This document shows positions 377-18,961 of a stretch of DNA of 27,252 nucleotides, piece by piece. Numbering within the stretch: position 1 is the first letter of the stretch; each line of letters begins with the position of its first letter. Source of the stretch: a virus. The position numbers and the translations under genes were made by a program. The notes beneath the pieces were generated by a model. The model was given only the letters and a program-made list of their open reading frames with translations. It searched no databases and was not told where the DNA came from. The DNA lies in IMG/VR virus record IMGVR_UViG_3300036900_000034, positions 1 through 27,252 of that record; one strand, given 5' to 3'.

Positions 377-472
377 TCAGTTCGCGAGCGAAATTGCCAC
401 AACAAAAATGATGATTCCCATCAAGATGATGGTGAGGAAGGCGTAGATAGCGGCCTTGTCTCCACTGCTCAT
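377..472 (-). CDS. 31-aa single-helix membrane protein
   Basis: The ATG at 472 overlaps the stop of the previous gene as ATGA. The product is MSSGDKAAIYAFLTIILMGI with the tail IIFVVAISLAN: a short polar head and one long hydrophobic helix. The longer open frame up to 844 is a shadow. No strong ribosome-binding site is seen, so translation would be by coupling. Its place at the end of the tail genes and before another membrane protein suggests a holin-like or lysis helper, but this is not shown. Confidence 0.6.
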   Translation of the reverse strand: MSSGDKAAIYAFLTIILMGIIIFVVAISLAN

Positions 473-879
473 TTCAGCGTTATCACCACACCCGGAGGCG
501 GCCCAGGCGTTACCGGTGCTTGAATCGTTTGGGGAAAGATGGCGCTTGCCGAGGATGGCACACCTCCTGAGGGGGTATAGGTGGCGTAGCCGCAGTAGAT
601 TGCTCCCGTGACGAGCGATGGCCCAGAATCGGTATAAAGCCATGTGGTCTGTGTGGTGGTGATGGTCGGATTCGGCACAGCAGTAGAGACGTTGATATAA
701 GCCGCATCCCCGGCAGCTGGGCAAGTTGACCCGCTCGGCAAAGCAACGCGCCAAACCTGCGCCGTGCATGCAACGGTCGTCGTGCATTTGCTGGTGTTGA
801 TCGTCCACTGAGCGGTATGCGGTGTCTGCGCAAAGGCAGAGCACGAGAGAGCGAATGCGAGTAAGACGAGACGCTTCAT
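469..879 (-). CDS. 136-aa secreted protein with signal peptide
   Basis: The ATG at 879 gives an ATGA overlap with the large adhesin-like gene and places a clear signal peptide at the N-terminus: MKRLVLLAFALSCSAFAQ, with cleavage likely after A or Q. The open frame extends upstream to 1158, but that part is a shadow of the large gene. The mature part is about 118 aa, Thr/Ser/Pro-rich and beta-like (TTTVACTAQVWRVALPSGST, CPAAGDAAYINVSTAVPNPT), with four cysteines and a Pro-rich end (VTPGPPPGVVITLK). The style is that of a small Ig-like or fibre-tip module. An ATGA overlap follows into the 31-aa gene. Function unknown; it may be a partner of the two large fibre proteins. Confidence 0.7.
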   Translation of the reverse strand: MKRLVLLAFALSCSAFAQTPHTAQWTINTSKCTTTVACTAQVWRVALPSGSTCPAAGDAAYINVSTAVPNPTITTTQTTWLYTDSGPSLVTGAIYCGYATYTPSGGVPSSASAIFPQTIQAPVTPGPPPGVVITLK

Positions 880-3800
880 TGGATCTTGATACCCCCTGAG
901 AATTTCACTGTGCCTGCGATGGTGATGTTTGCTGTCGGCGCAGCAGCGTTGAACGTGGCTGTCACCGTGCAAGCCGCGTTGGGCATGTTCCCCGTGTATG
1001 TTGTTGTGCCGCTGCCACTGCAACCCGTCACAGAGGCCAGCGTAGAGCCGCCTGTGGCCGTCACAGTGCATGAGTAGGACGCGTTGTAGTTGTGGGCACC
1101 TGCGCAGCCTGTAATCGTGCCTGTGCCGCTTCCTGCTGTGGCTGTTGAAAGCGTCCAACTGTTGATTGTGAAGTTAGCCGTGGCTGCAGAGTTGGCGCCG
1201 ATGGAGAAGGATGGGCATGGATTGGTTGCGCCGGAACACGCTGCTGAACCCGAAACCGATGACCATGAGGTAAACGAGTAGCCCGTGTTCGGGACCGCGG
1301 TGCAAGCGCCTATCGTATTCCCGCTCACATAGCTTCCATTTGCGCAGTTTGAACCCGTCAGGCTGCCGTTGGTCGCTGTTGCTGTCCATGTGTAGGAAGT
1401 AGCAGGCGCGGATCCATAGAACTCAGTCGTGTCTGAAATGACGCGGACCTGAGTTGACGCCGCGGCCGCGGTCATGTCGATCTGCACCTGCATATCCGGC
1501 CCAGATGCCCAGGAGCTTAGATTGACTGGAATCCCGCCCATAGGAACCACTGCGACAGAATCAAACAATGCATAAGTCTTCGGGCTGGTCGCGGCCGTCA
1601 CGTCCCAAATCTGCAGGTAGTCATAGAACATGCAGTTCGAACCGCTCGAAGCCGTGCAAGACGCGCGCCGATGGCCGAAATTTCGCGTCTTGTAGCAGTG
1701 CCCCGAGGTCAGAGGGTAGGAAGTGATGTTCGCTCCTCCGGCCACGTCGACGCCGAGAAGGACAGTCCAGGGATTCGATTGCGGGGCCGCTCTGAACATT
1801 CCCGAGGTGCCGCCCCAGTCAAAGCCCCATCCTGCGTACGCTCCTGTGCCGCCTGAATAAGCCGTGGGGCTGGAATTGATATTTACATCAAACTCCCAGT
1901 CATGCAGAGTCGAGACGTTATCGGCGCACCAGTACATATCGCGGTAATAGGCGAGAGCGTTATCGAGCGTGGTTGAATTGCTCGTGTATTGCGAAGGCCA
2001 TAGCACGTCCGAGTTTCCATGCCCGCCAGCGGTTGATTGTGCGAAGACTGCGCTGCCATTTGCCACGCATCCCAAAGGCGAAAGGCCGGTAATCGGCGTT
2101 GCTGTCGAGTTCGATGGATCGCCCGAGCAAACCGCATCGTCTGCTGTGCCGCCGTAGGTGTCGGTTACGGTCACAGGCGAGTCTGTGCCGCCTGAGTTGT
2201 TGCCGTTGTCCATCGCCTGAATTCCAACGCCTGAGCTTGTCACGGTCACTGCGTTCTGCGTTGCGCAGCCTGCTGCAATCGCCGCTGTCCTGATGGCTGA
2301 TGTTGCGTAGAGTTGCCCGACAGGGACACCTAGGGGCGTGATGTTGTGGCTGCCGTCGCATCCCGTTCCCACATTGCCAAGCTGCTTGCGCGAGGGAGTT
2401 ACGACGATGCCGCTTGAGTTCGAGTTTGACGATAGCGTGGCAGTAAAGAGAATTGAGGGTGTGCCGCTGATCGTGTAAACCCCAGAGGTCACGCTTGAGT
2501 CCGAGTAGCCTGTCTCGCAGGCAATCGCCTTTAGCGTCGTGGTAGATCCGATGGAGACGCCAGCCGTGTAGACCGTGCCGGTACTGCAAGTCGGAGCTGT
2601 TCCGCTGGTGGTATAGCGAATCGTTGCGCCGGCCGTTGTTGTCAGCATCACAACCGGAAGCCCTGCCGCGTAAGTATCAGCGATAGGGCCAAAGACGGGC
2701 GCATTAACTGCACCGTTGATGACGTAGGCAGCCGATGATATGGAAGAGTCATTCCAGCCGGTTTCGTATGCAATCGCCTTGATGGTCAGCGATGTTGCAA
2801 CGCTGACAGGTGTGGAATAGACCGTGCCGTGAGTCGTTGTGGGCGTGCTTCCATCTGTGGTGTAGCGGATTGTCGCACCGCCTGTGCTGGTCGAAATTGT
2901 GACATTCTGCGTGGGTCCGTAAGATCCGGCAACCGGGCTCAATGTGGGGGCAACAACTGTGCCTTGGAACGTTGCAGTGACCGTGCAGTTTGCCGTCACA
3001 GTGCCGGTGTAGGTTGTGGTCCCCGTCCCTCCGCAGCCGGTGACACTCGCGATAGTCGAGCCGCCGGCGGGTGCGATCGCGCAAGAGAATGGCGTGCCAG
3101 AGGAAATGCCTGAGCCTGTCGGAGAGCATGTGACGGTGCCTGAGCCTGTGCCGGCCGTCGCGGTCGAGAGGGTAAAGGTCGTTCCGCCAACCAGCGGGTG
3201 AGGATAGGTGAGAGGCCCGCCGCCAGAATAAAGCCCTGTCCATGTGTTTGTGGATGAGCAGGCATAAATCTGCTCTGTGGCGGTGTCTTGATAGCCCACA
3301 CCATAGCTTCCTGTCGGGCTGACTCCCGTCGTTCCGCCTGGGCCTGCGGTGCAGGTGGCTGGCCGCGAACCGAGAGCGCCAAAGCCTGTGCCGAATGCGC
3401 CGGTAAATGATCCTGTGCACGTAGAATTCAGCGCGTTGCAGTCTTCGTAGTAATCGCGATTGTTAGTGCTTGAGATGTCCTGATTGTTGTAGCTGCCACC
3501 TGCACCGGTAATCGTGTTGTGGATGAGATAGACCGGCTCAAGCATCTGATGCGGCCACGCGATGATGTTCCCTGCGGTGACGTTCAAACGTCCCAGCGAA
3601 GGGGTTGCGTTCAGGTTCGCCCCGTTCATCGTGTCCTGCGTCTGGCCGCGCCCTACTCCGTCCAGGCATGGATAGCCGTTGCCAGAAAATGAGAAGTCCC
3701 ACCCGCTGCCTACGCCATTCGCCAGCCCTGTTCCGGGGTTGATGGCGTTGGCACCGCAATACCCCCATCCGAGCGAGTTATTTGTTTCTGCGCGCGTATC

Positions 3801-4835
3801 GCACTGGCGATCTGAGCAAGCTCCATAGACCCAGTTGAAGCTCCCACTCGCCGCGGTGTTGCCCCATACCAGCGCCGGACCGCCCTTTGAGCCAGAGAAG
3901 GCGAAGGTGCCCGTCGATTGTGTGGCGTAGTTGTGATACTCCTCGTATCCTCTGCAACCACGTAGCGAGCCGCCAGCGGTCACTGTGGCGTGAGTCTGGG
4001 CTGTTACTGAGACATTGCGAAAGATGTTGTAGCGCTCGACGAAGAATCCTGCCGCATCGCAATCGTTTGGATAGCCGCCCGAGATGTCTGAGCTTTCAAG
4101 GTAGATGGCTTTAAGCGTTCCCCAAGGGGTTGCGTTCTGCCACGTCCCGTCACCGTTGCCGATAGAATCCCCGATGGTGTTGAATGCCTGGAATCCGTTG
4201 GTACTCACGCCAATGCAAGCAGAGGCCGTGCAGAGGTTCATGTTGGTGTGATCGATGACACCCTGCGTCGGGCCGTTGAATCTGAGCCATGTGGATTGCA
4301 AACCAGCAGGGGAGTAAGTCGAGTTGTCGATGTGCAGCTGAGTCAGGCGGATATTCTGAGAGTTGCCGCCGATCGCCAGAAAGCCGTTGAACTTCACAAA
4401 GGTGGTACTGCCGCCCTTGAAGGTAAAGCCGCTCATGGTGAAGTGAGTCGATGTGCCTCCGGTGGTGATGATCAGCGGAGATGTGTTCGAGGTGACGGAA
4501 TCCTGAATGATGGTTGAATCTGTTGGGGTGCAGGCATACCCCGAGGTTCCTGCGGTGCCTGTGCAGGTCACTGTCGTTGCGCCTTGAATGACAAGCGTGG
4601 TAACAGCCGAGGGCACAGTCAGCGAGACGGTTGAGGTCCATGCCGAGGTTCCAGCCGGGACGTTGAGCGTTACTGTCGCGTTGGTATTCCCCGCCGTCGG
4701 CCATGCTGCGATGAAATCCGACTGCGAAGGGCTGGCAGCGTTACAGACTGACGTGGTGCAGGACTGGCCCGAAAGTTGTAGAGGGGCCAGCAGGCAGAGT
4801 GCTAGACTGCCGAGCATGATTGCTGCGAAACGCAT
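876..4835 (-). CDS. Large secreted modular adhesin-like protein in the fibre cluster
   Basis: The ATG at 4835 is chosen (1319 aa): AGGA lies 8 nt upstream and the signal peptide starts there (MRFAAIMLGSLALCLLAPLQ). The frame is open to a GTG at 4907, so a longer form is possible. Residues about 78-330 look like a parallel beta-helix (FTMSGFTFKGG, LTQLHIDNSTY, GVIDHTNMNL), the fold of many tailspikes and pectate lyases. Two chitobiase C-terminal-like domains follow at about 627-788 (GGATIRYTTDGSTPT, AGATIRYTTSGTAPT). Three Cys-rich Gly/Thr repeats (about 548-625, 1145-1225, 1228-1295) resemble InlB-type B-repeats. A domain at about 795-1145 is unknown. It may bind or cut host polysaccharide. 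An ATGA overlap leads into the next gene. Confidence 0.75.
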   Translation of the reverse strand: MRFAAIMLGSLALCLLAPLQLSGQSCTTSVCNAASPSQSDFIAAWPTAGNTNATVTLNVPAGTSAWTSTVSLTVPSAVTTLVIQGATTVTCTGTAGTSGYACTPTDSTIIQDSVTSNTSPLIITTGGTSTHFTMSGFTFKGGSTTFVKFNGFLAIGGNSQNIRLTQLHIDNSTYSPAGLQSTWLRFNGPTQGVIDHTNMNLCTASACIGVSTNGFQAFNTIGDSIGNGDGTWQNATPWGTLKAIYLESSDISGGYPNDCDAAGFFVERYNIFRNVSVTAQTHATVTAGGSLRGCRGYEEYHNYATQSTGTFAFSGSKGGPALVWGNTAASGSFNWVYGACSDRQCDTRAETNNSLGWGYCGANAINPGTGLANGVGSGWDFSFSGNGYPCLDGVGRGQTQDTMNGANLNATPSLGRLNVTAGNIIAWPHQMLEPVYLIHNTITGAGGSYNNQDISSTNNRDYYEDCNALNSTCTGSFTGAFGTGFGALGSRPATCTAGPGGTTGVSPTGSYGVGYQDTATEQIYACSSTNTWTGLYSGGGPLTYPHPLVGGTTFTLSTATAGTGSGTVTCSPTGSGISSGTPFSCAIAPAGGSTIASVTGCGGTGTTTYTGTVTANCTVTATFQGTVVAPTLSPVAGSYGPTQNVTISTSTGGATIRYTTDGSTPTTTHGTVYSTPVSVATSLTIKAIAYETGWNDSSISSAAYVINGAVNAPVFGPIADTYAAGLPVVMLTTTAGATIRYTTSGTAPTCSTGTVYTAGVSIGSTTTLKAIACETGYSDSSVTSGVYTISGTPSILFTATLSSNSNSSGIVVTPSRKQLGNVGTGCDGSHNITPLGVPVGQLYATSAIRTAAIAAGCATQNAVTVTSSGVGIQAMDNGNNSGGTDSPVTVTDTYGGTADDAVCSGDPSNSTATPITGLSPLGCVANGSAVFAQSTAGGHGNSDVLWPSQYTSNSTTLDNALAYYRDMYWCADNVSTLHDWEFDVNINSSPTAYSGGTGAYAGWGFDWGGTSGMFRAAPQSNPWTVLLGVDVAGGANITSYPLTSGHCYKTRNFGHRRASCTASSGSNCMFYDYLQIWDVTAATSPKTYALFDSVAVVPMGGIPVNLSSWASGPDMQVQIDMTAAAASTQVRVISDTTEFYGSAPATSYTWTATATNGSLTGSNCANGSYVSGNTIGACTAVPNTGYSFTSWSSVSGSAACSGATNPCPSFSIGANSAATANFTINSWTLSTATAGSGTGTITGCAGAHNYNASYSCTVTATGGSTLASVTGCSGSGTTTYTGNMPNAACTVTATFNAAAPTANITIAGTVKFSGGIKIQ

Positions 4836-4914
4836 TTTGGGGTTCCTGCTCATCGTGATTGCATTTCTGGCCTTTGGTGTCTGGGTCGTTAAAGTCATGC
4901 CGCCCACGCCCTAG
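4816..4914 (+). CDS. Possible 32-aa membrane ORF opposite the fibre leader
   Basis: A plus-strand ORF from ATG 4816 to TAG 4914 encodes MIAAKRILGFLLIVIAFLAF, GVWVVKVMPPTP: one hydrophobic helix with a basic N-terminus. It overlaps the signal-peptide end of the minus-strand gene and the gap before it. No convincing Shine-Dalgarno is seen (only GAG nearby). Hydrophobic shadow frames can arise opposite a leader region, so this is probably chance. Confidence 0.12.
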   Translation: MIAAKRILGFLLIVIAFLAFGVWVVKVMPPTP

Positions 4915-7900
4915 TTGATCCCGTAGAGGGTGAAACTGCTCCCGGCTGCGAAGTGCCCCGAGCCTACAGTGGAAGTGAATGAGGTAATGGCGCTGGTTTG
5001 ATTCCAGAGGCAGGTTGAGTGCAGTGCACCGTTATTAGTCGCAGAGGAAACGCTTGGATACGACATCATTTCCTGCACAACCGTCTTTCCGAACGACGTC
5101 TGAGCGTAGAAGGGGAAGAGGAATTCTGCCGATCCTGCTACAGCCCCAGATGCAGCCAGATACAGACCCTTGCACGCCGTCGCGCTCACTGCCGAAAGTC
5201 CGGTGATTGTTCCGGTGCCGGTGACGAAATACCCTTCATCGGCATAGTGGGCTGAGGTATCGGCGTTGATCGTGAGCGGAACAGACTGCCATGTGCTATC
5301 CCCAATCCCGTTAAAGATCATCTTGAGGTGGTTGAACGTTCCAGGGATTACTGAGAACGTGACCACGCTCGTAGTGCTTCCTGAGACAGTGCAGACCCCG
5401 TTGGACACCGTGCAGCCGGTTGCAGTAACCGAGCCGGTGATGTTGGTCATAGCCGATGCCGAGCCGGTTGAGCAGGTTGGGCAGGAGACGGCGTAGGTGG
5501 TTCCCGAGGGAGTGACGACAACCGGGGAAACCCCTGTCACATTCACCGCAGTAGCCGCCTGCTGGACGCTGAACATGGTGATGATCGTGCGGGAATTTCC
5601 GGTGATGCGGAAACCAGCCTGCCCCACAGCGGTAATCGGTGAGGAGCTATCCGTCGCAGTGAGTTCAAGCACGTTGCCGAGATAGACCTTTAGCGTCGTG
5701 GTTGATGTTCCGCTTACCTGAAGCGAGAGCGTCAGCGCGACATTGGTGGGGATGACAAAGGTTGCCGTCCCCAGAGTCGTCGGAGTTCCCGCCACCGTCT
5801 TGAACAGCGTGATTGCTCCGGTGCCGTTGATGTTCGCGTAGTAGTGTGTTGCCGCTGCGCTACTGGCGCGTGCAAACACTCCGCATTCACCTGTTGAGGT
5901 GACGAGCCAGCACCTTGCCGTCACGGTGTAATCCGTCGTTACCGGAGTGAGGGTAGAAAGCACATCCCCATAGGTGGGAGACGCCCCCGTAGTTAATTCA
6001 GCCGTTCCGGGGTTCACCGTTCCCTGAATCGTCGGCACACCCTGCGGGGAGGAGTTGTTGTTGGTGTACTGGGCGTAGGTGTTTCCGTAGGTGTCCGTGT
6101 GAGAGGTCAGAGCCGTTGTCGCGGTTCCTTGGAAGTAATCGAGGGCGGTGTAATGGCCTACCGCAACGGTTCCCTTGCCTTGGTCTACCAGTTGAATTTC
6201 ACTGAGCGGATTTGAGACAAAATTCGGCGCATCGTTCAGCGAAATGGGATTTGTGTTGATCTGGATTTCGGGGATGTTTCGGAAGTTCCCGCCATCGATC
6301 GATCCATTTGCTAAGACGTTTGCCAGCGTGTCATTGATCGTCACCGCATTGATGTAGGAAGGAACAACGCAGGTAGGCGCTACGCAACTGTTTTCAATCG
6401 CGTCGTAGTACATCGTGACGCGGTTTCCGCCGTTCTGAGCACCTGAGAAGTCAGGAAGGATGTAGGGGTCGGCAATCTGCGCAAGCGAAGATCCGATGCC
6501 CTCATTCTGATTCTGAACAGTGAGATTCGGCCTGCTTGGGAAGGTCCACGTCGAGCCGTTGTCGGTCGAGGAGCCAATGTAGATGTAAGGCGTAAGCGGG
6601 TCAGAGGTTCCGCAGTGAATCGCTGCCCAGAGCTTCGTTCCGTCGTAGTAGAGCCACACACCGCTTGCAGATAGGCAGTTGCCGCCAATGGTGTTCGCGT
6701 TGTTGCCAATGACGGGAGCACCTGCCTTGGTATAGCTGCCTGTATATCCAGTGGTCGAGGTAGCCTTGAAAAGCTGGAAGTGTGCGGCTGAGGTCTGGCA
6801 CTCGTAAATAGCCGTCCAGTTGTTTCCGCTGGTGTTGACGACTGCCCAGTTTTGCAGGCTGTTGGCAGTTTCAATGCTGCTGCCACCGCATGACATTGCA
6901 CCTGTGGTTGTCTTGGTCAGGCCAGCCATCGTGGTGCCGGTAAAGATGTCGCCTGATCCGGTGTTGATGTTTGTGGCGAGAACGACAAGGTTTCCGCTCT
7001 GCCGCGTGGGGAGCATGTAGCCGCGCCCATAGTTCACCGTTGCAGCAAGAGGACAGCCGCCCTGGATTCTCTTTGGCGGTTGAATGCCATCGGCAGACTC
7101 ACCGAAGCACAGCCCAATCCCACGCCCGCCGCCGGCTGTCGGCCACCATCCGGTTGTCCACTCCATCTTGACGACTTCAGCATCATTGGTGAGGACTTCG
7201 GGCGATGAGTCCCACATTGCTGAAGGTTCGAGCACCTGCGCGTTGGCATCGCCTGCCTGCGCTCCGATAACCACGCCCATGCGGTCCCATACTTCAGTCG
7301 AAGTGCCTGCTGCGCATACACCGTTAGCCGCGGTGCAGAATCTTGAAGCCGCCCCGCCCGCTTCAGACCCAACTGCGTGGCCGCTGGAATCTACGCCATA
7401 GACCGCCGTGGTTCCACTGCCAGGCACCACTGGGGTGGCATTGTAGGTAAGCGCAATTTGACTCGCTCCGATGGCTGTGACCGCGATAGGCTCTGTCGAT
7501 GTGACAGTAGTTCCGTTATCGCTGAGGGCAGATTGCGCGCCTGTGGTTGTCGCGTTTGTGGCCTTGCCGATGACGTTGGCTGCCTGACCTGAGACGGTTC
7601 CAGATCCACCCCCACCCGAACCGCAAGGCGTGCCTGTTGATCCCAATACGCCAGATGCCCAGGTTCCGCATCCATCCGCTACACCCGTATTCGTCAGCGA
7701 GTGACCCGAGGCGATAGTTAAGCCGAGATTGAAGGTATGTGATGCCGTCCAGATAAACGCATTGGCAAGATTGACTCCGAGCGTTCCGGTTGTGGTTATG
7801 GGTCCGCCCGTCATCGTCGCATCTGTCGCAACGTTGGTGACTCCTCCACCCCCGCCTCCGCCAGCAGAGAAGACTGAATAGCTCGTTCCATTGCTGACGC

Positions 7901-9335
7901 AGAGGTTGACTGTCGTTCCCCCGCCAGCCGAGCAGTCGGTGCTATTCAGTGCATTGCGAACCAGGAAGACGTTGCTGACGTTGGCGCCTGGAGGAAAGAG
8001 CGTTGCGAGTTGCGCGGCCTGGACTGAGATCAGCCCAGCGGGAAAATTCGCGTCCACTCCCAGTGTCTTGAGATTCGGGTCATAGACCAGCGGAGGCAGG
8101 ACGTTCAGCGCGTTGTCGGCCGCTGGAGGGGGGTCGGTATTGTAGAAAATCATGTAGCCGATGTTCCCGACAATCAACTCAGTCGGCGAAGTGGTTGATA
8201 CTCCCGAGCGGGAAATACCGGCCGTGGCTGTCGATGCCTCGAAGTTCGCACCCGTCAAGCCCGTCAGCCCGGTAAACTGCTGCATCGGCCATGATCCCCT
8301 TGGGCCTGCTACCGGGGTAAGCTGAATCCCACCTGAAGCCACGTCTACGCCATTGGTCGCGTTGTCGCTGCGCAGTGAGTCAAAGGCAAACCCATAAACG
8401 GCTGTGATGTGGGAGGTGCTGGTAATCTGCGGGGCTTGCGCTGCCAATGCTCCGGTAAACGTCCAAGTGATGTGGCAGTCGCTTGGCGGGAAGGTGCTCG
8501 ATTCTGCCGCCATCAGGAGATCAACGGAAGAGTTGCTTCCCGAGACAAATGGGTTGGCGCAATAGCCCGATGCAAATCCGGTGCTTCCTGTGGGGTGAAT
8601 GATGGCGTAGGTTCCTGTGATGGGCGGAACAGGCTTCATCTCGAGCGCTGGCGTCGAGGTAGCAGGGACTTCAAAGCTGATATTCGCTGCGCCATCCTGC
8701 CGAGGAATGGCGTTGATGTAACCCGCATCTGGCGCCGGCAGAGTGGTGCTCAGATTGACAGGCCAAACCGGAGACGTTGGAACGTCATCGACCTTGATTG
8801 CAGGCCCGTCCAGCGTGATCTGGTTTGTGCCGAGGTTGTGTACCTTGATTGCCGCGGTATCGACAAAGTTGGGCGTGGTGTCTGTTGCCAGGTTTGAGCC
8901 GTTTACCTGCACATGCACAGCCGCGCAGCCCCCGGTGCCATTTGAGCCTTGTATCACTCCTGATGCGCCGATCGCCGTACATCCTGCCCCTCCACCGCCG
9001 CTGTCCCATGTGGGGATGTGGTCAACTGTCCAGATGAGCGAGCCATCTGGGTGCTTCAGAACGAGCTTGATAGTCGGAGTGCCTACCCAGATTTGCGCTT
9101 CGCCTGCTGCGTTCAAGATGATGGGATTGGGGTTCTGGCTTACTTCAAGATAATCGGTGTAAGTTGGTGTCTGCGTGCTCGTGCCCGCGAGAAATGAGTA
9201 CAATTTACAACCCACGCACGGCGATCCTGTTTCATCTACGAATTGCCACATCGGCTGAACTAAGGGATGTGCCTGCCCATAGCCCAGTGAAGAGCCACAC
9301 AACAGCGCGAACGGGATTAGCCGCTTAAAGTTCAT
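4911..9335 (-). CDS. Tailspike/tail fibre with signal peptide and P22-like head-binding domain
   Basis: The protein is 1474 aa, with GAGG 10 nt before the ATG. Residues 1-21 look like a Sec signal peptide (MNFKRLIPFALLCGSS, then GYGQ). Residues 24-107 match the tailspike head-binding domain: GCKLYSFLAGTSTQTPTYTD, then NPNPIILNAAGEAQIWVG, then KLVLKHPDG and IWTVD, with an unusual CVGC pair (C40, C43). A Gly/Ser/Thr-rich stalk leads to a likely beta-propeller around 680-1030 with an Asp-box (SSTDNGSTW, near 923) and IADPYIL, so it may be a glycan-binding or glycan-cutting module. A jelly-roll-like domain follows (about 1110-1260). The C-terminus ends in AGSSFTLYGIN, typical of phage fibre tips. 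Host recognition is likely. A Sec signal on a fibre is odd. Confidence 0.8.
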   Translation of the reverse strand: MNFKRLIPFALLCGSSLGYGQAHPLVQPMWQFVDETGSPCVGCKLYSFLAGTSTQTPTYTDYLEVSQNPNPIILNAAGEAQIWVGTPTIKLVLKHPDGSLIWTVDHIPTWDSGGGGAGCTAIGASGVIQGSNGTGGCAAVHVQVNGSNLATDTTPNFVDTAAIKVHNLGTNQITLDGPAIKVDDVPTSPVWPVNLSTTLPAPDAGYINAIPRQDGAANISFEVPATSTPALEMKPVPPITGTYAIIHPTGSTGFASGYCANPFVSGSNSSVDLLMAAESSTFPPSDCHITWTFTGALAAQAPQITSTSHITAVYGFAFDSLRSDNATNGVDVASGGIQLTPVAGPRGSWPMQQFTGLTGLTGANFEASTATAGISRSGVSTTSPTELIVGNIGYMIFYNTDPPPAADNALNVLPPLVYDPNLKTLGVDANFPAGLISVQAAQLATLFPPGANVSNVFLVRNALNSTDCSAGGGTTVNLCVSNGTSYSVFSAGGGGGGGVTNVATDATMTGGPITTTGTLGVNLANAFIWTASHTFNLGLTIASGHSLTNTGVADGCGTWASGVLGSTGTPCGSGGGGSGTVSGQAANVIGKATNATTTGAQSALSDNGTTVTSTEPIAVTAIGASQIALTYNATPVVPGSGTTAVYGVDSSGHAVGSEAGGAASRFCTAANGVCAAGTSTEVWDRMGVVIGAQAGDANAQVLEPSAMWDSSPEVLTNDAEVVKMEWTTGWWPTAGGGRGIGLCFGESADGIQPPKRIQGGCPLAATVNYGRGYMLPTRQSGNLVVLATNINTGSGDIFTGTTMAGLTKTTTGAMSCGGSSIETANSLQNWAVVNTSGNNWTAIYECQTSAAHFQLFKATSTTGYTGSYTKAGAPVIGNNANTIGGNCLSASGVWLYYDGTKLWAAIHCGTSDPLTPYIYIGSSTDNGSTWTFPSRPNLTVQNQNEGIGSSLAQIADPYILPDFSGAQNGGNRVTMYYDAIENSCVAPTCVVPSYINAVTINDTLANVLANGSIDGGNFRNIPEIQINTNPISLNDAPNFVSNPLSEIQLVDQGKGTVAVGHYTALDYFQGTATTALTSHTDTYGNTYAQYTNNNSSPQGVPTIQGTVNPGTAELTTGASPTYGDVLSTLTPVTTDYTVTARCWLVTSTGECGVFARASSAAATHYYANINGTGAITLFKTVAGTPTTLGTATFVIPTNVALTLSLQVSGTSTTTLKVYLGNVLELTATDSSSPITAVGQAGFRITGNSRTIITMFSVQQAATAVNVTGVSPVVVTPSGTTYAVSCPTCSTGSASAMTNITGSVTATGCTVSNGVCTVSGSTTSVVTFSVIPGTFNHLKMIFNGIGDSTWQSVPLTINADTSAHYADEGYFVTGTGTITGLSAVSATACKGLYLAASGAVAGSAEFLFPFYAQTSFGKTVVQEMMSYPSVSSATNNGALHSTCLWNQTSAITSFTSTVGSGHFAAGSSFTLYGIN

Positions 9336-9374
9336 CTTGATATGTCCTCTTGAGCAGTGCTAGAGTGTGAGCCT

Positions 9375-9483: not shown

Positions 9484-10854
9484 TTACTGGCGACCCTGGG
9501 CCGCGAGAAATCGCTGAATTGCTAAATCCCGCATTTGCTGAGGTGTCAATTGTGGATTCTGGGGTTTATAGTTCTGTGCGTTATTGCCCAAGCCATTAGG
9601 GGATACGCCTTCCACCGGAAGACTCTCCGCTGGGGTAAGGCGCTCCCCAAGCGAGGAAAGAGCCTTGCCACCACGAAATAGGCCTGTCGCTATGGCCGTC
9701 TTTCCCGGCACGCTATCTATTGCGGCGCCAGCCGCTAGCCCAAGAAGGGGGTTGCCCTCCATGCCGCCAGCCATCGCACCTGTTCCCAGCATTAGAGCCT
9801 TGTATATATGCGCAGTTAGCGGTCGAGAGCCGGTATTCGCGCGCTCTTCTGCCCTGCCCGACATCTTCAGCAGGTCCATGTAGTTCTGATTGAGCGGGGC
9901 TGTTTCGGGAATGGCTTCCTGCAGCACTCCCGAGAGCCCACCGACCTGCTGCTGGGTGACCGACTTTAACCCTACTTGCGTTGGATCTGACCAGCTTGTT
10001 GCTTTTGCCAGATCCTTCTTCATTTTCCAGACTTGTGAGGGGGTAAAGCCGCCCTGGGCTTGGCCTTCATCAAACACTTTCTTAAAAGTGGAGGCATGAT
10101 ATTTCAGGTCATCCAACAGGCCCTTGGGGGCTCCGACGCCGGTAGCCACTTCGTGCGCTTCTTTCATCGGCTCCGCAATAGCATTAGCCACATCTTCAAC
10201 CGGGATTAGTTTCCCAGATGCGTCGGCCGCCTTGTATGCCGCGTCGAGCTTTTGCCCTGTCGCATCAGCAGCATCGGCAGACTTCTCCGCAAGGCTGCGC
10301 ATGGATATTGCAGGACCATTCCCGGTCTCTAGGTAACCCCTGCCGGGATTAGCGCCGCGCTTGAAATCGGCTTTGAGCGTCCCCACCGTCTTGTTAATCA
10401 AGCCGGTGCCGGCGTCTTGCGCTGCGTTGCCTACTGCCGTTGCCGCTGTGCCTGTACCCTTCTTGACGAGCGCCGCGGCGGGTTCTGCTACTTCTCCTGC
10501 GGCGTTGCCGAGAACTGCCCCGCCCACAAGGTTTCCGGCTGTCTGTGCTGGGTTGTCGATCGCAGATTGGATCATCTGCTTTCCGGTGTCGTATGGGTGC
10601 GCGATCATCTGCCCCATGCCCGAGAGCGTATCGAGCGGATGCACGAAGGGCTGCGTTACGCCTTGGATTGCGCCAGCGCCGAACTTCTGCGCCTGATTGA
10701 CTAGGGCAGAGTGGCCCTGCTGCTGCTCAGGCGTGACTGTGGTGAGCTTGTCGACGTATTTCTGGACGATGTTGCGGTCGTCGGACGCATCGGGAGGTAC
10801 GGGCGTCCAGCCTGCCTGATCTGGGGGTACGGGTGTCCACGCGCTAGTGCTCAT
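9484..10854 (-). CDS. Candidate ejection protein (gp16 position)
   Basis: The ATG at 10854 is chosen (456 aa): it gives the ATGA overlap and has GGAAG 9 nt upstream, whereas the ATG at 10869 would overlap the previous gene. The N-terminus has a repeated WTPVPPD motif (two copies within 20 residues), a disordered leader also seen in other phage internal proteins. Small-residue helices follow (AGNLVGGAVLGNAAGEVAEP, AAALVKKGTGTAATAVGNAA) that could insert into a membrane. The middle has KSADAADATGQKLDAAYKAAD and PSQVWKMKKDLAKATSWSD. A second hydrophobic Gly/Ala region lies at about 355-395. It may help the genome cross the host envelope; this is inferred. Confidence 0.62.
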   Translation of the reverse strand: MSTSAWTPVPPDQAGWTPVPPDASDDRNIVQKYVDKLTTVTPEQQQGHSALVNQAQKFGAGAIQGVTQPFVHPLDTLSGMGQMIAHPYDTGKQMIQSAIDNPAQTAGNLVGGAVLGNAAGEVAEPAAALVKKGTGTAATAVGNAAQDAGTGLINKTVGTLKADFKRGANPGRGYLETGNGPAISMRSLAEKSADAADATGQKLDAAYKAADASGKLIPVEDVANAIAEPMKEAHEVATGVGAPKGLLDDLKYHASTFKKVFDEGQAQGGFTPSQVWKMKKDLAKATSWSDPTQVGLKSVTQQQVGGLSGVLQEAIPETAPLNQNYMDLLKMSGRAEERANTGSRPLTAHIYKALMLGTGAMAGGMEGNPLLGLAAGAAIDSVPGKTAIATGLFRGGKALSSLGERLTPAESLPVEGVSPNGLGNNAQNYKPQNPQLTPQQMRDLAIQRFLAAQGRQ

Positions 10855-12491
10855 TGCTTTAACTTCCATCCAGCCGGGAGGGGTGTGCCTGCTGGTGCCT
10901 GGTGAAGATTCCCATTCTGGTCAACGGCACGAATCATGCCGCTAGCGGGGGCGCCTTGCGCACCGCCCTCCAGAAGCCCATATTTCTGCAACCGCTGCTG
11001 CCCCTTTTGGTCAAAGAACTCGTTTACCGGCAAATCCTGCCCCGTGCTGTTCTTGTACTTCTGGAAAAGTGAGCGAGACTTGCCGCCGAGTAGATCCATC
11101 GTCTCTTTCAATGCTGAATCACGCACACTCTGCCGTGCGGAAGTGAGGCCGCTCGATATCTTATTGCTTTCATCGACTGTCAGCACTCCATTCTTGACGA
11201 GCTTCCCTACTTCACCAGTCAGGAATTCGACATCCTGCATGTATTTGGCAGAGGTGCCACTCTCTATCGTCTTATTGCCCATTGCCGGGGAGAATCCCGC
11301 ATCGGCTGAGTTACTGATTGCCCTATCTGCGTGCTCCATTGCAGTCGCAAGCTGCATGACGTTCTGAGCATCGCCTTTTGTCTTGAAGTCCTGCTTTCCT
11401 TTGTACCGAGCATCGGTATAACTCGGGTCGTAAGTGAGCACAGCATTTCTCAGCGCTTGCGCCTGGACGTTGCGTGCGCTTGCCGATGGGACTGCGATAT
11501 CTCCGTTTGCCATTGCTTTAACTTGCGCCTGCGTTCCGGCTGGCAGCGTCTGCAAATAGGCGTCCCCGGTAAGATTGGTGCCGTTGTCTGTGAGGCCCAG
11601 AGCCAACTTCTGCTTTGCTAACGACAATTCCCCGGGGATGCGCGCGTTTTGCTCCGCGCCTGCTTTGGCAGCAGCCAGCCGAATCTGGCCCTGCTGAATC
11701 AGCTTTGATCCCGGGGCAGTTCCCATCGCAACCGACTGCGCCGAAGGGTCATAGAAGATGCTGTTAGGGTCGCTTTTGCCTTGCGTTTGCTCCGCTTGCG
11801 CTTTCTTTTGCGCATCTTCCAGGAGCTTGTTAAAGCCGCCCATGCCAGCGATTTGCGAGGTAAGGGCCGCGCGAATCTTAGCAGGATCGGCCATTTGCGC
11901 CAGTTGTGACGCCATTTGAGCATGTTGAGGATCCAAGACGCCTTGCTGAGTCAACTGCTGCGCCGCGGATTGGAGCCCGGGCACAAGCTGCTCATCCGGC
12001 AACTGCATCACGCCTGTCATTGCGTTTATCAGCATGTCGTTTTTGGTTTTGATTGCGTTGGCCTGTGCACTGCCTGCCTGGGCGTCATTCTTGGCGATGG
12101 TCGACGCCTTGTCTTTCATGTCGAGCACTTGCTTTTGCAGGGCCTGATATGTGCTGTAAGAGACGCCCGCTTTCCTCGTTCTGTCGAGCAGGTCGTCGTA
12201 GTTGGGCATCGAAGAGGCTTGGGGCTGGGTACCATCAGCAGCAGCGGCCGCGGGCTTTGGGGATGCCCAATCCTGCATGACAGCGCTCATCTTCTGCTGA
12301 TCCTGCTGCTCGCGTTGTGCCTTCTGTAGTTCCAACTGGCCGCTCTGCACGCGCTGCTGCGCCTCCTGCTGCTGCAGAGGAGCCAGCTGCATCATATTGC
12401 GGAGTTGCAAGATACGGCCGTACTGCTCAACAGGATCATTCTGCTGTTGAGGAGCGTGAATGCTTAAAGCCGGAAGAGGGATGCTGCCCAT
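10851..12491 (-). CDS. Candidate ejection protein, Gln-rich coiled coil (gp20 position)
   Basis: This 546-aa, mostly helical protein is very rich in Gln and Ala. Residues about 15-75 form a coiled coil (GRILQLRNMMQLAPLQQQEA, QQRVQSGQLELQKAQREQQD). More helices follow at about 100-310, then a region with TALEHADRA-like and DSALKETMDLLGGKSRSLF segments. The C-terminal domain (LFQKYKNSTGQDLPVNEFFD) is compact. No signal peptide and few cysteines are seen. It lies between the gp7-like gene and another candidate ejection gene, matching P22 gp20. This style of long Q-rich protein is common among podovirus internal proteins. The assignment is from position and composition. Confidence 0.62.
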   Translation of the reverse strand: MGSIPLPALSIHAPQQQNDPVEQYGRILQLRNMMQLAPLQQQEAQQRVQSGQLELQKAQREQQDQQKMSAVMQDWASPKPAAAAADGTQPQASSMPNYDDLLDRTRKAGVSYSTYQALQKQVLDMKDKASTIAKNDAQAGSAQANAIKTKNDMLINAMTGVMQLPDEQLVPGLQSAAQQLTQQGVLDPQHAQMASQLAQMADPAKIRAALTSQIAGMGGFNKLLEDAQKKAQAEQTQGKSDPNSIFYDPSAQSVAMGTAPGSKLIQQGQIRLAAAKAGAEQNARIPGELSLAKQKLALGLTDNGTNLTGDAYLQTLPAGTQAQVKAMANGDIAVPSASARNVQAQALRNAVLTYDPSYTDARYKGKQDFKTKGDAQNVMQLATAMEHADRAISNSADAGFSPAMGNKTIESGTSAKYMQDVEFLTGEVGKLVKNGVLTVDESNKISSGLTSARQSVRDSALKETMDLLGGKSRSLFQKYKNSTGQDLPVNEFFDQKGQQRLQKYGLLEGGAQGAPASGMIRAVDQNGNLHQAPAGTPLPAGWKLKQ

Positions 12492-12493
12492 AT

Positions 12494-13774
12494 CTAACCT
12501 GCCGCCCCGGTGAACGAACCCCAGTCACCGTATGGATTTGAAGTTGCTGCACCGCCGCCCATATTCTGCAATTGATTCAGCAGATAGAGATTCGAGAGGT
12601 TGTTTCCTACACCCCCGACAGCCCCACCCCATGCGTTTGCAGAGCCAGCGATGCCTGAAGCGTTGGCTGCTCCTGCGTTCTGGTAGGCATTGCCCATACT
12701 TTGAGCGGTGTTCAGCAGGTTGCTCGAGACGTTGTTGGATGCTGCCTGCCCTGCGTTCGAGAGCTGGCCGGCCGCTGTCTGCCCGATTCCTGCAATGGCT
12801 GCTAACCTGTTGAACTGGTTAGCCTGATCCGTGTTGTATTGGTTGTAATTGGTGTCAAAGCCTTGCAAGGCGCGCTGGTATACATTCCCGTACTCGCTTG
12901 AGCCGTAATCCTGCCCGAACTGGGTCAGATCCTTGAGCGTGCCCCCGGTCAATACGCCGCCCCGAGCCGCCGCAGAACGCTGCACCGCATCCGTGCCTAG
13001 CTTCAACCTTTCCTGATAGCCGGGATCGTTCTGCATCGTCAGTTCAGTTGGCGCAGTGAAGTGTCCAGAATACGGCGTCATCAGCGAGCCGAAACCACCT
13101 GAAGGCGATTGACCCGAAAGGCCGGTGTCGCCAGATGCGCCAATGACACTAGCGGGGCCTCCCGTAGCCCCGCCAAAGCCGCCGTTGATTGAGCCGACAG
13201 GCATAGCCGCGCCGCCGCCAGGGTTCGCTGTAGGGGCCGTGTAGCCTAATCCGCCCGTATCGCCGGGGAATGTACCGATAGCCGTACCGGGTCCGCCCGA
13301 AGCCCCGCCGAATGCAGGCGAAGCGCTGGGAGGGGTGTAGCCTAGGCCGCTAGTCATCGCCGCTGGCCTGCCAAATCCGCCTGGCCCGCTCGTTGGCGCT
13401 GTTCCACCCGTTGCACCGCTCGGTAGTGCAGTCCCCCCGACTGAACCACCAAGCGAGTGCTGCGGACTGGCGGTAGGGGCGCCGCCAATGCTGGTCATGG
13501 GGTTGATGCCCATCAGATAGCCCAGATTCGACAGCGCCCCGCCGCCATATTGCAGCCACGGCGCCATGTTCTGCTGATTTTGGGTGTATTGCTGCTTCTG
13601 GAAATCAAGCGCGTTCTGCGAAGCGTCGTATTGAAGCTGGGCGGCGTTGTTGGCAGCGCTTGATTGCTGCTTCGCCGCCGACTTTGCCCCGCTGGATGCA
13701 ATCGCAGCACCGCCGACTGACCCAGCGAGTCCGATGCCCCCCAGAATTGCGGTAGTTGCGATTGCGCCGCTCAT
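12494..13774 (-). CDS. Gly-rich virion/ejection protein, P22 gp7 position
   Basis: This 426-aa protein occupies the place of P22 gp7, the first of three proteins ejected with the DNA. The N-terminus is a small-residue hydrophobic helix (GGIGLAGSVGGAAIASSGAK) followed by an Ala/Gln helix (QYDASQNALDFQKQQYTQNQ). This pattern recurs in phage DNA-transfer proteins and could cross a membrane. Residues about 90-240 are Gly/Pro/Ser-rich with an internal repeat (GLGYT...FGGA.GGP..IG). The C-terminal half is helical and Ala/Asn/Gln-rich (YQRALQGFDTNYNQYNTDQA), ending in a Gly-rich tail. A strong GAGGAG precedes the ATG. Ejection function is inferred from order and composition. Confidence 0.65.
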   Translation of the reverse strand: MSGAIATTAILGGIGLAGSVGGAAIASSGAKSAAKQQSSAANNAAQLQYDASQNALDFQKQQYTQNQQNMAPWLQYGGGALSNLGYLMGINPMTSIGGAPTASPQHSLGGSVGGTALPSGATGGTAPTSGPGGFGRPAAMTSGLGYTPPSASPAFGGASGGPGTAIGTFPGDTGGLGYTAPTANPGGGAAMPVGSINGGFGGATGGPASVIGASGDTGLSGQSPSGGFGSLMTPYSGHFTAPTELTMQNDPGYQERLKLGTDAVQRSAAARGGVLTGGTLKDLTQFGQDYGSSEYGNVYQRALQGFDTNYNQYNTDQANQFNRLAAIAGIGQTAAGQLSNAGQAASNNVSSNLLNTAQSMGNAYQNAGAANASGIAGSANAWGGAVGGVGNNLSNLYLLNQLQNMGGGAATSNPYGDWGSFTGAAG

Positions 13775-14235
13775 GCTTGCTCCTCAGTAATCGTGATTTT
13801 GTTCAAATCCTGCCTGCGTGACAGCAATAACTCCGCTTCGTCCGTGAATTCGACTTCCGCATCCTGAACCGTCTTTGCCTGTGTCGGGAAAATCATCGTT
13901 ATGATCACAGGGCCTTTTGACTCAAAAACCTGTTTCCGCCCAGCCGATGCAGGCAGCACCGCGTAACCGTTGATTTCCACCTTTTCAGCGCCTACCAGAA
14001 CGCTTGCACAGCCCACCACAATCACCATCGTGGGGATCTTGATGAGCGCCCCGATCAATCTGGCATTCGGTGGCATTGTGACCGTCCGCGAGTACATCCC
14101 CGCATGAATCAAATGCTCTGTATAGAGCGGCAGTTGCTCTTTTCCCATCTCTACAAGCTGCACTTCGCAGAGCTTGCGGATGATACCCGGTGCTGTTGGT
14201 GGCAGCACCGGAATCGGGATGCTTAATGCGCTCAC
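13771..14235 (-). CDS. Hypothetical 154-aa beta-rich protein
   Basis: The GTG start at 14235 directly follows the previous stop, with AAGG 7 nt upstream. The protein is beta-rich: PGIIRKLCEVQLVEMGKEQL, LYTEHLIHAGMYSRTVTMPP, then a Val/Ile-rich core (KIPTMVIVVGCASVLVG) and GPVIITMIFPTQAKTVQDAEVEFTDE. The strand pattern suggests a cupin or jelly-roll-like fold, but that is a guess. No signal peptide is seen. It overlaps the gp7-like gene by ATGA. It lies among tail and ejection genes, so a virion role is possible. I do not recognise the family. Confidence 0.6.
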   Translation of the reverse strand: MSALSIPIPVLPPTAPGIIRKLCEVQLVEMGKEQLPLYTEHLIHAGMYSRTVTMPPNARLIGALIKIPTMVIVVGCASVLVGAEKVEINGYAVLPASAGRKQVFESKGPVIITMIFPTQAKTVQDAEVEFTDEAELLLSRRQDLNKITITEEQA

Positions 14236-14599: not shown

Positions 14600-15034
14600 A
14601 AATGCCCTACAAAACACCGTATTGGTGTGCCTGTACTTCTTGTGCAAATTGAGCAACTTTTCGAGACTCCCGCCCGCCGGTGCGCTGTAGAGAATCGCTA
14701 CGCATCCGGCCTGTCTTGCAAATTCCTCCACAGCCGAAATCAGGTGCGCACCGAGCCCGCCTGAGCGATTCGCCTGAGACACAAAGAGACTTTCCAGTGT
14801 CGCAACCTTCTTGCCGTAGTGCGGCAGGACCGTTACCAGCACGGATGCAAACCCCACCATATGTTCCACGTAGAACGCTCCGAACATCTGCACCACTCCC
14901 GCCTTCTCGAGCGCGGCGTATGTCTCAGCCTGGGGGTTTACTGTGCCAATCTCGGGAATCGAGCACTCAGCCGCATATTCGGCGAGCAATTCAGGCGCGG
15001 CGAGAATGTCGAGGTACGTGACGGGGGCGATCAT
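14597..15034 (-). CDS. GNAT-family N-acetyltransferase
   Basis: This 145-aa protein is the size of a single GNAT domain, which moves an acetyl group from acetyl-CoA to an amine. The core strand is FVEHMVGFASVLV-like (FYVEHMVGFASVLVTVLPHYG). The following ATLESLFVSQANRSGGLGAHLISAVEEFARQAG region fits the acetyl-CoA-binding strand and helix, with N-R-S-G-G-L-G-A-H as a form of the Q/RxxGxG/A loop. The last strand is CVAILYSAP. GNAT genes are seen in some phage tail and ejection modules, where their target is unclear. It has an ATGA overlap with the fibre-like gene and no strong ribosome-binding site of its own. The substrate cannot be inferred. Confidence 0.82.
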   Translation of the reverse strand: MIAPVTYLDILAAPELLAEYAAECSIPEIGTVNPQAETYAALEKAGVVQMFGAFYVEHMVGFASVLVTVLPHYGKKVATLESLFVSQANRSGGLGAHLISAVEEFARQAGCVAILYSAPAGGSLEKLLNLHKKYRHTNTVFCRAF

Positions 15035-15732
15035 GTGGGATCTACGTGAGCAGTGAGAATTCCGTTCGTGAACGTCAAACTTCCTGTTGTGCCGCCTCCG
15101 GTAAGAGGTCCAAGCGGAACCGTTACCGACAGGCCAGCAACCGGAAGCTGTGATCCAGAGATGTTGCCCGAGATGTTTCCAAAGCTCGGCTGCGCCTGCC
15201 CAAACGCTCCTGTGGTTGAATCGTAAGAGGTCAGAAACTTGTTAAAGACGAACGGCGTGTTGTTTGCCAGCGCTGGCGTTCCGGTAAGGCTGCCGAAGGA
15301 AACGTCGTTCGGCGACCATGATGTCCCGCTCCAGATCAGCGCTTGGTTTGTAGCCGGGGCCGAAGCAACCAGAGAACTATAAGCCGTCGCTGCGCCTGTA
15401 ACCTGGTTGACCGTCGTGCGCGCGAAGGTCACCGTGTCTGCGATGTGGTCGAGATTGACGTCGGCCGCCACGTTGGTCAGGGAATTTAGCTGCCCTGTGC
15501 CTGTGAGATTCTGAACCACCGAAACAACCGTGCCAGGATGGCTTACGACTGTTGCTGCGGGGCCGATGACGCCGTTGAACTGGCCCAGGATGTCGAGCGC
15601 TGCATTGATGGCCTCAATAATCCGCATGAGCACGTTTTGCCCGTATGCTGTCGGCGTGCCCGTCTTGGGGTCAACGATCTGCGCAGTTGAAGCGAGCGGC
15701 GAGACTACCAGGCTGGTAATCGGACTGCTCAT
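15031..15732 (-). CDS. Fibre-like tail protein in the tail-needle position
   Basis: This 233-aa protein has low complexity typical of phage fibres. The N-terminal about 60 residues include a helix (NVLMRIIEAINAALDILGQF). After that come Val/Thr/Gly-rich strand repeats (VNLDHIADTVTFARTTVN, ALIWSGTSWSPNDVSFGSLT), then a C-terminal beta region with GPLTGGGTTGSLTFTNG. It stands where P22 encodes the tail needle gp26, but the strong coiled coil of gp26 is not evident, so it may be a short side fibre instead. GAGG lies about 8 nt before the ATG, and ATGA overlaps exist at both ends. Virion tail protein is likely; the exact part is unknown. Confidence 0.6.
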   Translation of the reverse strand: MSSPITSLVVSPLASTAQIVDPKTGTPTAYGQNVLMRIIEAINAALDILGQFNGVIGPAATVVSHPGTVVSVVQNLTGTGQLNSLTNVAADVNLDHIADTVTFARTTVNQVTGAATAYSSLVASAPATNQALIWSGTSWSPNDVSFGSLTGTPALANNTPFVFNKFLTSYDSTTGAFGQAQPSFGNISGNISGSQLPVAGLSVTVPLGPLTGGGTTGSLTFTNGILTAHVDPT

Positions 15733-18135: not shown

Positions 18136-18287
18136 TATCTACCCTTCTGATGTGGCTGGAATGGAGGCTTTTGCACTTGGGGCGCTGGCTTTTCGTTGCT
18201 GACTGCAAGCTGGAATGCGATCTCCTTGAGCCAGTGCGTTACCGAGAGGTCGTAGTGTGGCGTCTGCTTGATTTGGTCGCTAGTCAC
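18135..18287 (-). CDS. 50-aa microgene between glycosyltransferase and adaptor
   Basis: A GTG start at 18287 overlaps the glycosyltransferase stop (GTGA), and the TAA stop overlaps the adaptor ATG (TAATG). A strong Shine-Dalgarno (GGGAGG) lies 9 nt before the GTG. The product begins MTSDQIKQTPHYDLSVTHWL, continues with KEIAFQLAVSNEKPAP and ends in a Pro/Gln/Lys-rich basic tail. It has no membrane segment and I do not recognise it. Exact fitting between two genes plus the ribosome-binding site argue that it is translated. It may be a small virion or assembly factor. Confidence 0.6.
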   Translation of the reverse strand: MTSDQIKQTPHYDLSVTHWLKEIAFQLAVSNEKPAPQVQKPPFQPHQKGR

Positions 18288-18961
18288 GCTTCACTGCCTC
18301 CCGGCTGCCTGAGAAGGAACTTATGTAAATTGCCTTTGTAAACCTTGCCCTTGTCGTGGTGGTCGATGCTCAGATTTGGCACTAACCAGATGTCGCCGCA
18401 TTTGTCTTTCCAGCGCCGCGCAAATGAGTAGTCCTCGCCCCACCAGACACGCTCATGCACGCCATGATTGAAGAGGTCGACTGCCTGGTGGTACATCGGG
18501 CCATAACAGAGCTCGGGGTAAGCAACCATGAACCTGTCGACTGCTTCCGGGGTGATCTTCAGGAAGCCTGCCGGAATGAGTTTGGCTGAGATTGCGCCGT
18601 CGGACTGCCTGACTATGGGCACAAAGTTCTCGTGCGTTTCCCATGTGCCCATGTAGTACTCGTCATCCTGCTTGCATCGATACGTGCCGGCAACTACTTC
18701 GCCTTCCGTCTGGATCAGCTTGAGCAAGTCTTCCGGCCGCCACGCTACGTCGTAATCGAGAAACACAACCGCATCTGCCTTGGCATCGAGCGCTGCACGA
18801 AGCATGTTGGCTCGGGCCGCTGAGATGTATGGACATGCGATCTGCTGGGCATATCCGTGCTCCCATCCTGCCGCCTCAATCAGTGGAAGTGAATCTTCGA
18901 GGGACTTAATGTACGGGGCCGTGGGTCCGGAGAGCGAAGGTGTGCAGAAAACGACTTTCAA
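18284..18961 (-). CDS. GT-A-fold glycosyltransferase
   Basis: This 225-aa protein starts with TTG in a TTGA overlap with the previous glycosyltransferase. The N-terminus KVVFCTPSLSG and the ISAARANMLRAALD helix lead into ADAVVFLDYDVAWRPEDL, where DYD is the DxD metal site near residue 90. A later WWGEDYSFARRWKDKCGDIW segment and a DHHD motif near the C-terminus resemble the catalytic end of many phage-encoded glycosyltransferases. It forms a two-gene cassette with its neighbour, inserted between the coat and connector genes. The cassette might glycosylate the capsid, the tail proteins or the host surface; the sequence does not decide. The enzyme class is secure, but donor and acceptor are not. 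Confidence 0.82.
   Translation of the reverse strand: MKVVFCTPSLSGPTAPYIKSLEDSLPLIEAAGWEHGYAQQIACPYISAARANMLRAALDAKADAVVFLDYDVAWRPEDLLKLIQTEGEVVAGTYRCKQDDEYYMGTWETHENFVPIVRQSDGAISAKLIPAGFLKITPEAVDRFMVAYPELCYGPMYHQAVDLFNHGVHERVWWGEDYSFARRWKDKCGDIWLVPNLSIDHHDKGKVYKGNLHKFLLRQPGGSEA

Follow-up and report, generated by a model that had tools for sequence, protein, structure and literature searches.

On the prevailing view, the whole assembly of a tailed phage takes place in the cytoplasm, and the particles are freed by lysis. The tailspikes of P22, Sf6, Pam1 and Pan3 begin at the head-binding domain (HBD), and in P22 completed heads can take up their spikes in vitro, which is then the final step of assembly. 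Here we analyzed a stretch of viral DNA of 27,252 nucleotides (IMG/VR record IMGVR_UViG_3300036900_000034, hereafter the window) in which the tailspike gene and the two genes behind it encode predicted Sec signal peptides. PHROG matches and gene order identify it as a P22-like late region on the minus strand, and it most likely belongs to a P22-like short-tailed phage of Terriglobales (Acidobacteriota). In contrast to the four described spikes, spikes of the window type add a predicted cleavable Sec leader: the window spike is a variant, not a standard member, of the P22 type, with a leader of 20 residues ahead of its HBD. A sequence-only reading of this locus knew of no described system in which a whole fibre cluster is exported, and our searches of the open-access full-text literature, beyond which unseen precedents are possible, found no report of a signal peptide on a spike or fibre of any tailed phage.

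The tailspike and the three leaders

The features that carry the argument are the following:

4911 to 9335, minus strand: tailspike gene, 1474 residues (open reading frame, Shine-Dalgarno sequence, synteny with phage PBR31, HBD homology)
9345 to 9350, minus strand: spike Shine-Dalgarno sequence AGAGGA, preceding the leader ATG at 9335
9276 to 9335, minus strand: predicted spike signal peptide, residues 1-20, MNFKRLIPFALLCGSSLGYG, then cut before QAH (rule-based model)
9015 to 9257, minus strand: HBD, spike residues 27-107 (profile and fold match)
9207 to 9218, minus strand: CVGC motif (CXXC), spike residues 40-43, replacing LVGG of leaderless spikes
876 to 4835, minus strand: protein 2, 1319 residues (open reading frame and Shine-Dalgarno sequence at 4844-4847)
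4764 to 4835, minus strand: predicted protein 2 signal peptide, 24 residues, MRFAAIMLGSLALCLLAPLQLSGQ, ending LQLSGQ, cut before SC
469 to 879, minus strand: 136-residue protein, with a signal peptide and four mature cysteines
829 to 879, minus strand: predicted signal peptide of the 136-residue protein, MKRLVLLAFALSCSAFA, cut before QTP

The 1474-residue protein is a real tailspike with an HBD of the P22/Pam1 type after its leader. Using hmmsearch, the HBD matched the head-binding domain of the 7eeq tailspike (E 7.5e-14) and the 9vyg tail spike (E 2.5e-13). When an AF2 model of the mature HBD (pLDDT 81) was searched with Foldseek, the top 23 matches were all tailspike or tail-complex structures; the matches comprise Pan3, Pam1, P22 (1lkt and gp4:gp10:gp9N) and Sf6 gp14N. 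Direct alignment places residue 28 of the window spike opposite residue 8 or 9 of 9vyg, so that about 20 extra residues precede the window HBD, which is the length of the leader. The position of the gene points the same way: Xanthomonas phage PBR31 shares the order of adaptor, acetyltransferase, two small genes, internal proteins A-B-C, tail spike and lysis genes, which puts the 1474-residue gene in the tailspike slot. The distal part of the spike is long and cysteine-rich, gave no significant Pfam or PHROG match, and includes a segment (residues 680-1150) for which no relatives were found. A C-terminal membrane anchor was looked for in the spike and none was seen; the sequence ends GHFAAGSSFTLYGIN, with no hydrophobic anchor.

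The proposal that three consecutive late genes encode Sec signal peptides was borne out, as the spike, protein 2 and the 136-residue protein all carry leaders of the type cut by signal peptidase I, each with a basic n-region, a hydrophobic h-region and a small-x-small end. The leaders were called by a home-made rule-based model of Sec/signal peptidase I leaders, with 15 E. coli signal peptides as a check set. This model was positive for 14 of the 15 and for all three query proteins, and for none of the 21 other window genes at their listed starts (one was positive only from an internal start). Shuffled leaders reached the real score in 0.25% of trials for the spike, 2.2% for protein 2 and 0% for the 136-residue protein. 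When every possible start was scored in 816 genes from leaderless phages, 20 gave a false call (2.5%), so three leaders in a row would be expected by chance with a probability of about 1.5e-5. The start of protein 2 was set at the ATG at 4835, rather than that of a longer in-frame open reading frame, because a ribosome-binding site (AGGA, 4844-4847) stands there; the start of the 136-residue gene (879) overlaps the stop codon of protein 2. Relatives retain these features: the spike relative in L090 has a leader of like character ending PAPA/Q (the slash marks the predicted cut), and the protein 2 relative in L002 has one ending LQLSAQ/TC. Across leader codons 1-13, the window and L002 present a single synonymous difference, which is too few changes to count as support.

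Other classes of leader were considered. A lipoprotein signal was ruled out on the conserved C13, which is preceded by LL and not by a lipobox, and a Tat signal on the absence of a twin-arginine motif. It might also be argued that the leader is untranslated, the true start being internal and the resemblance to a signal peptide due to chance or to host-gene chimerism; an ATG (M29) does lie inside the window spike gene, and in several relatives a GTG follows closely on the predicted cut. However, good Shine-Dalgarno sequences precede the leader ATGs, M29 is missing in the nearest relative, about 30 divergent leaders retain their n-, h- and c-regions, and the neighbouring genes are alike in this respect. 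Given the Shine-Dalgarno sequences, the conservation and the fact that relatives share no internal start, we rejected an annotation artefact, which is hardly credible.

Leader-bearing spikes in related phages and in Terriglobales

The pairing of a leader with an HBD recurs in related phage genomes. Scans of viral contigs and genomes yielded 179 distinct contigs with an HBD, 32 of them leader-bearing; automatic leader calls were amended by hand, with one false call from an internal GTG removed (L128) and one true leader that had been missed added (L169). Among 28 representative leaders (80% HBD identity), the feature is kept while its letters diverge. The HBDs of leader-bearing spikes present the same invariant columns as those of leaderless spikes, which start MAVLTPSPKMQF or similar. 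From the predicted cut (x-x-A/G/S before Q) to the LYTY motif there are 24-28 residues in 24 of 25 leader-bearing spikes and 31 in the other one; from the start codon to the same motif there are 23-27 residues in 68 of 73 leaderless spikes. The leader is an addition ahead of a complete domain, and its removal would restore the standard N-terminus. We further found that 14 leader-bearing phage contigs (35-61 kb, possibly incomplete) have one HBD gene each, which is the leader-bearing one, along with a gp10-like gene in all 14. This suggests that any HBD spike used by these virions is the exported one.

The best match among genomes was found in Edaphobacter aggregans DSM 19364 (Acidobacteriota, Terriglobales). 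It sits in a prophage-like region with an integrase and ejection-type proteins, in which no homologues of the window portal or gp10-like protein were detected. Strong HBD matches in 397 Terriglobales genomes all carried a leader (8/8; the model called five of these leaders, a sixth is evident although the model missed it, and two were judged by eye), whereas none of 11 readable HBD matches in Pseudomonadota genomes did. In four of the Terriglobales genomes with such a match, the leader-bearing spike shares a contig with the portal and the gp10-like gene, and the three are arranged as in a phage.

Leaders are confined to the fibre cluster. Among the genes behind leader-bearing spikes (up to three each), 39 of 69 have a leader, compared with 13 of 319 behind leaderless spikes. 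For the four genes upstream of the spike, the corresponding counts are 2/117 in leader-bearing phages and 7/497 in leaderless ones.

The mature parts of the three window proteins are rich in cysteine, as the sequence-only reading had noted: the spike has 28, protein 2 has 38 and the 136-residue protein has 4 (1.9, 2.9 and 3.4 per 100 residues), against 0-1.3 per 100 residues in 12 other window proteins. We did not count cysteine richness by itself as proof of export. At the site of the CVGC motif, CXXC was found in 10/10 leader-bearing and 0/70 leaderless spikes of the A4 scan, whose search patterns were cysteine-free (the patterns of the A5 and A6 scans include cysteine and are biased to CXXC spikes). 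Other leader-bearing spikes have cysteine pairs at other sites, while leaderless HBDs have lone cysteines or none. When only HBDs with any cysteine are considered, even and odd counts number 29 and 1 with a leader and 3 and 17 without (p 2e-9). Overall, cysteine frequency is 1.93 per 100 residues in leader-bearing and 0.59 in leaderless spikes. The even counts support the presence of disulfides, as would be expected of proteins folded in an oxidising compartment.

These observations bear on two alternatives. One is that the leader is functional but uncleaved and serves as an inner-membrane anchor for spikes or as a membrane-active virion tip; phage lysis proteins are indeed known to use such leaders as signal anchors. 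We consider this quite improbable, given that the A-x-A/Q end recurs, that the predicted cut gives an N-terminus of canonical length, that glutamine, near-universal at +1 in the phage leaders, likewise ranks first at this position in sampled E. aggregans signal peptides, that the paired cysteines imply an oxidising compartment, and that three bulky leaders would otherwise sit before the head-binding interface. The other alternative is dual localisation, in which internal initiation yields a leaderless minority that is built into virions in the cytoplasm, and the exported spikes serve another purpose outside. The window and some relatives do have GTG or ATG codons close to the cut. However, several relatives encode the valine past the cut by a codon other than GTG, leaving no consistent internal start, and no ribosome-binding site was seen ahead of M29; this alternative is very improbable. 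The choice between export and membrane anchoring, which the sequence-only reading had left undecided, is tilted towards true export by leaders that are real, recur across the clade, are confined to the cluster and accompany paired cysteines, although the spike alone is shown to be a tail adhesin.

Genes behind the spike and the rest of the late region

Further features of the window are listed below:

3834 to 4763, minus strand: right-handed beta-helix at the N-terminus of protein 2 (AF2 with 20 sequences, Foldseek)
2724 to 2936, minus strand: CHB_HEX_C_1 / Fn3_assoc repeat of protein 2, the better of two (Pfam E 1e-25 to 1e-27)
1161 to 1394, minus strand: Flg_new_2 (divergent InlB B-repeat) of protein 2 (Pfam E 1.4e-9)
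377 to 472, minus strand: single-transmembrane protein of 31 residues, candidate holin by putative function, overlapping the 136-residue gene by ATGA
15729 to 17231, minus strand: gp10-like head-closure protein (Hc3), without leader (phrog_578, E 1e-83)
15031 to 15732, minus strand: adaptor-like protein, without leader (placed as PBR31 orf027; weak phrog_9627 match)
9484 to 10869, 10851 to 12491 and 12494 to 13774, minus strand: three ejection/internal proteins directly upstream of the spike, without leaders

The AF2 model of protein 2 is confident for about the first 300 residues, and its best Foldseek matches were a polygalacturonase, PL6 lyases and phage tailspikes at E about 2e-3, none of which passes E 0.001. 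The protein carries repeats typical of host secreted proteins and has no HBD. Its family was found in 21 viral contigs, mostly with leaders and in many cases adjoining another leader-bearing gene. A search for relatives of the 136-residue protein detected none, the NCBIfam search gave no informative match, and no S74 domain was found by Pfam in the window proteins. The description of the three genes as a fibre cluster is thus appropriate for the spike, a tail adhesin by its HBD; protein 2 and the 136-residue protein may be secreted accessories and not fibres. Behind other leader-bearing spikes, the encoded domains include a GDSL esterase (L104, L093), tail-fibre PHROGs (L104) and Ig-like or Cep192/ASH-like modules.

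A second recurrent family stands directly behind the spike (L121, L092, L093, L094, L103, L104, L122), in which QVQ(L/I)GKNVQIG or something very similar comes after the signal peptide; it matched no Pfam family except for a weak GDSL match in L093. In L003 (6203-7887), strong leaders, MRSLVIALALALCASGAQAQ and MRRFVLALLACLLAGQAFAG, are encoded by two genes that lie behind a leaderless HBD fibre. This indicates that cluster members can be exported also without an exported spike.

The remainder of the window follows the order terminase small subunit (phrog_1482), terminase large subunit (25181-26491), portal (phrog_156), scaffold (phrog_8865) and coat (phrog_283), with further late genes for a gp4/Ad3-type match, the gp10-like and adaptor-like proteins, an acetyltransferase, two small proteins and the three ejection/internal proteins. 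One of the latter (12494-13774) matches phrog_598, DNA ejection, and the other two (9484-10869 and 10851-12491) were assigned from their place in the order, as in PBR31 internal A-C. Two adjacent proteins with glycosyltransferase-2 type matches (18284-18961, weak, and 18958-19572) are encoded between the coat and gp4-like genes and are possibly involved in surface modification. A leaderless 154-residue protein (13771-14235) matches phrog_12032, "short tail fiber protein". A protein of 117 residues with one transmembrane segment (12-365) comes, together with the 31-residue protein (377-472), after the exported genes, and both are likely lysis proteins. Finally, the gp10-like proteins of two related contigs contain in-frame insertions of about 280-320 residues, two in L263 (the contig of L093) and one in L264 (that of L105). 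The first of these consists of W-x-A-N-T-x-Y-x-x-G repeats and weakly matches CBM_5_12, as if carbohydrate-binding modules had been grafted onto the tail hub.

Proposed route of assembly and comparison with known systems

We propose that the leader would take the nascent spike through the Sec pore, a step strongly supported by the sequence data, and that signal peptidase I would then cut at A/G-x-A/G before Q to leave the N-terminus of leaderless HBDs, as the length match suggests. The spike would fold and form its disulfides in the periplasm, in line with the pairing of its cysteines. Spike-free heads would meanwhile be finished in the cytoplasm by the portal, gp4-like, gp10-like and ejection proteins, since these have no leaders. 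At or after lysis, mature spikes might dock on the tail hub through the HBD as the last step. Proteins 2 and 3 (the 136-residue protein) would be exported too, to serve either as additional adhesins or as free accessories that act on polysaccharides. The individual steps differ in how firmly they can be held: from its sequence, the spike is very likely exported and its leader is likely removed, while its late joining of the virion, based on the retained HBD, the single copy per phage and what is known of P22 in vitro, is reasonably probable. For the whole series of export, cutting, oxidation and late attachment to finished heads, we lean moderately in favor.

Several points weigh against this scheme. 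The leader calls come from a home-made predictor, and the leader of protein 2 is the weakest of the three. In a tree of 115 HBDs, the leader label requires four changes only, a single origin is possible, and there are too few pairs for an independent-pairs test; the survey counts therefore represent few evolutionary events and are not independent. Paired cysteines could instead provide stability after lysis, and phage Milano is reported to have a disulfide network in its tail (PMC10811340). Among the three window proteins, only the spike has an HBD. Moreover, a leader-bearing cluster protein of L094 (from 3574) is 80% identical over 892 residues to a secreted protein of E. aggregans, a chromosomal, non-prophage protein of 1801 residues (L249, 3053-8458). 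Such identity is best read as recent exchange between a phage fibre cluster and the host secretome, and it suggests that some cluster members may never be part of virions.

This last similarity is also consistent with the exported proteins acting off the virion, as enzymes or adhesins that clear the producer's coat, block further infection or alter the lysogen surface, the HBD being a relic. The beta-helix of protein 2, of the polysaccharide-lyase kind, its host-type repeats and the GDSL esterase domains of other cluster members fit such a role. For protein 2 and the 136-residue protein, this reading is quite plausible. As an account of the whole cluster it is unlikely, however: every leader-bearing spike retains the HBD with the invariant columns of leaderless ones, no second HBD gene was found in any checked phage, and the gene occupies the position of a virion tailspike.

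If spikes are exported and join late, then Sec, signal peptidase I and envelope disulfide formation become host factors for a tailed virion, the making of cysteine-rich adhesins by these soil phages is accounted for, and sharing of spikes between phages becomes possible. There is an even chance, in our view, that a widespread lineage of Acidobacteriota-infecting tailed phages completes its particles outside the cytoplasm, with spikes that are secreted, cut and oxidised by the envelope machinery of the host and dock at or after lysis, forming a shared pool for co-infecting phages to exchange. Prophages of Terriglobales make the idea of exported spikes testable. These results also carry two warnings for annotation: when a soil virus encodes a beta-helix or esterase protein with a signal peptide, this does not prove a host-derived auxiliary gene, and the absence of a signal peptide is no test of phage origin.

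Export signals are known from other phage and phage-like proteins. The host-binding virion protein pIII of filamentous phages has a Sec signal peptide (PMC8310372), but it is membrane-inserted and assembled during extrusion, whereas the window represents a double-stranded DNA tailed phage whose spike has no C-terminal anchor in its sequence. The antiholin RI of phage T4 has a cleavable signal peptide (PMC8385771). The MAT fibre proteins of Bdellovibrio are phage-fibre-like adhesins exported by a signal peptide, with a beta-rich domain right after it (PMC10769870); they are bacterial predation proteins and not phage proteins, and an HBD is not reported there. A survey of diversity-generating retroelements (DGRs) took the lack of detectable signal peptides in phage DGR adhesin-like proteins as support for phage origin (PMC6199706), a rule of thumb that the phages with leader-bearing spikes break.

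The closest relatives are true tailspikes. That of PBR31 (orf034) has the same gene order and 43% HBD identity, but starts MAVQIAPLPVMRF with no leader. The spikes of P22, Sf6, Pam1 and Pan3 (1lkt, 8tvr, 7sg7, 7eeq, 9vyg) resemble the window spike in N-terminal fold and sequence family, type of gene neighbourhood, and the presence of one spike gene per phage. Unlike these, leader-bearing HBDs hold a pair of cysteines, as CXXC or in another arrangement, and export extends to the genes behind them. The leader-bearing spike is a new form of the P22-type tailspike with an unusual proposed route of assembly.

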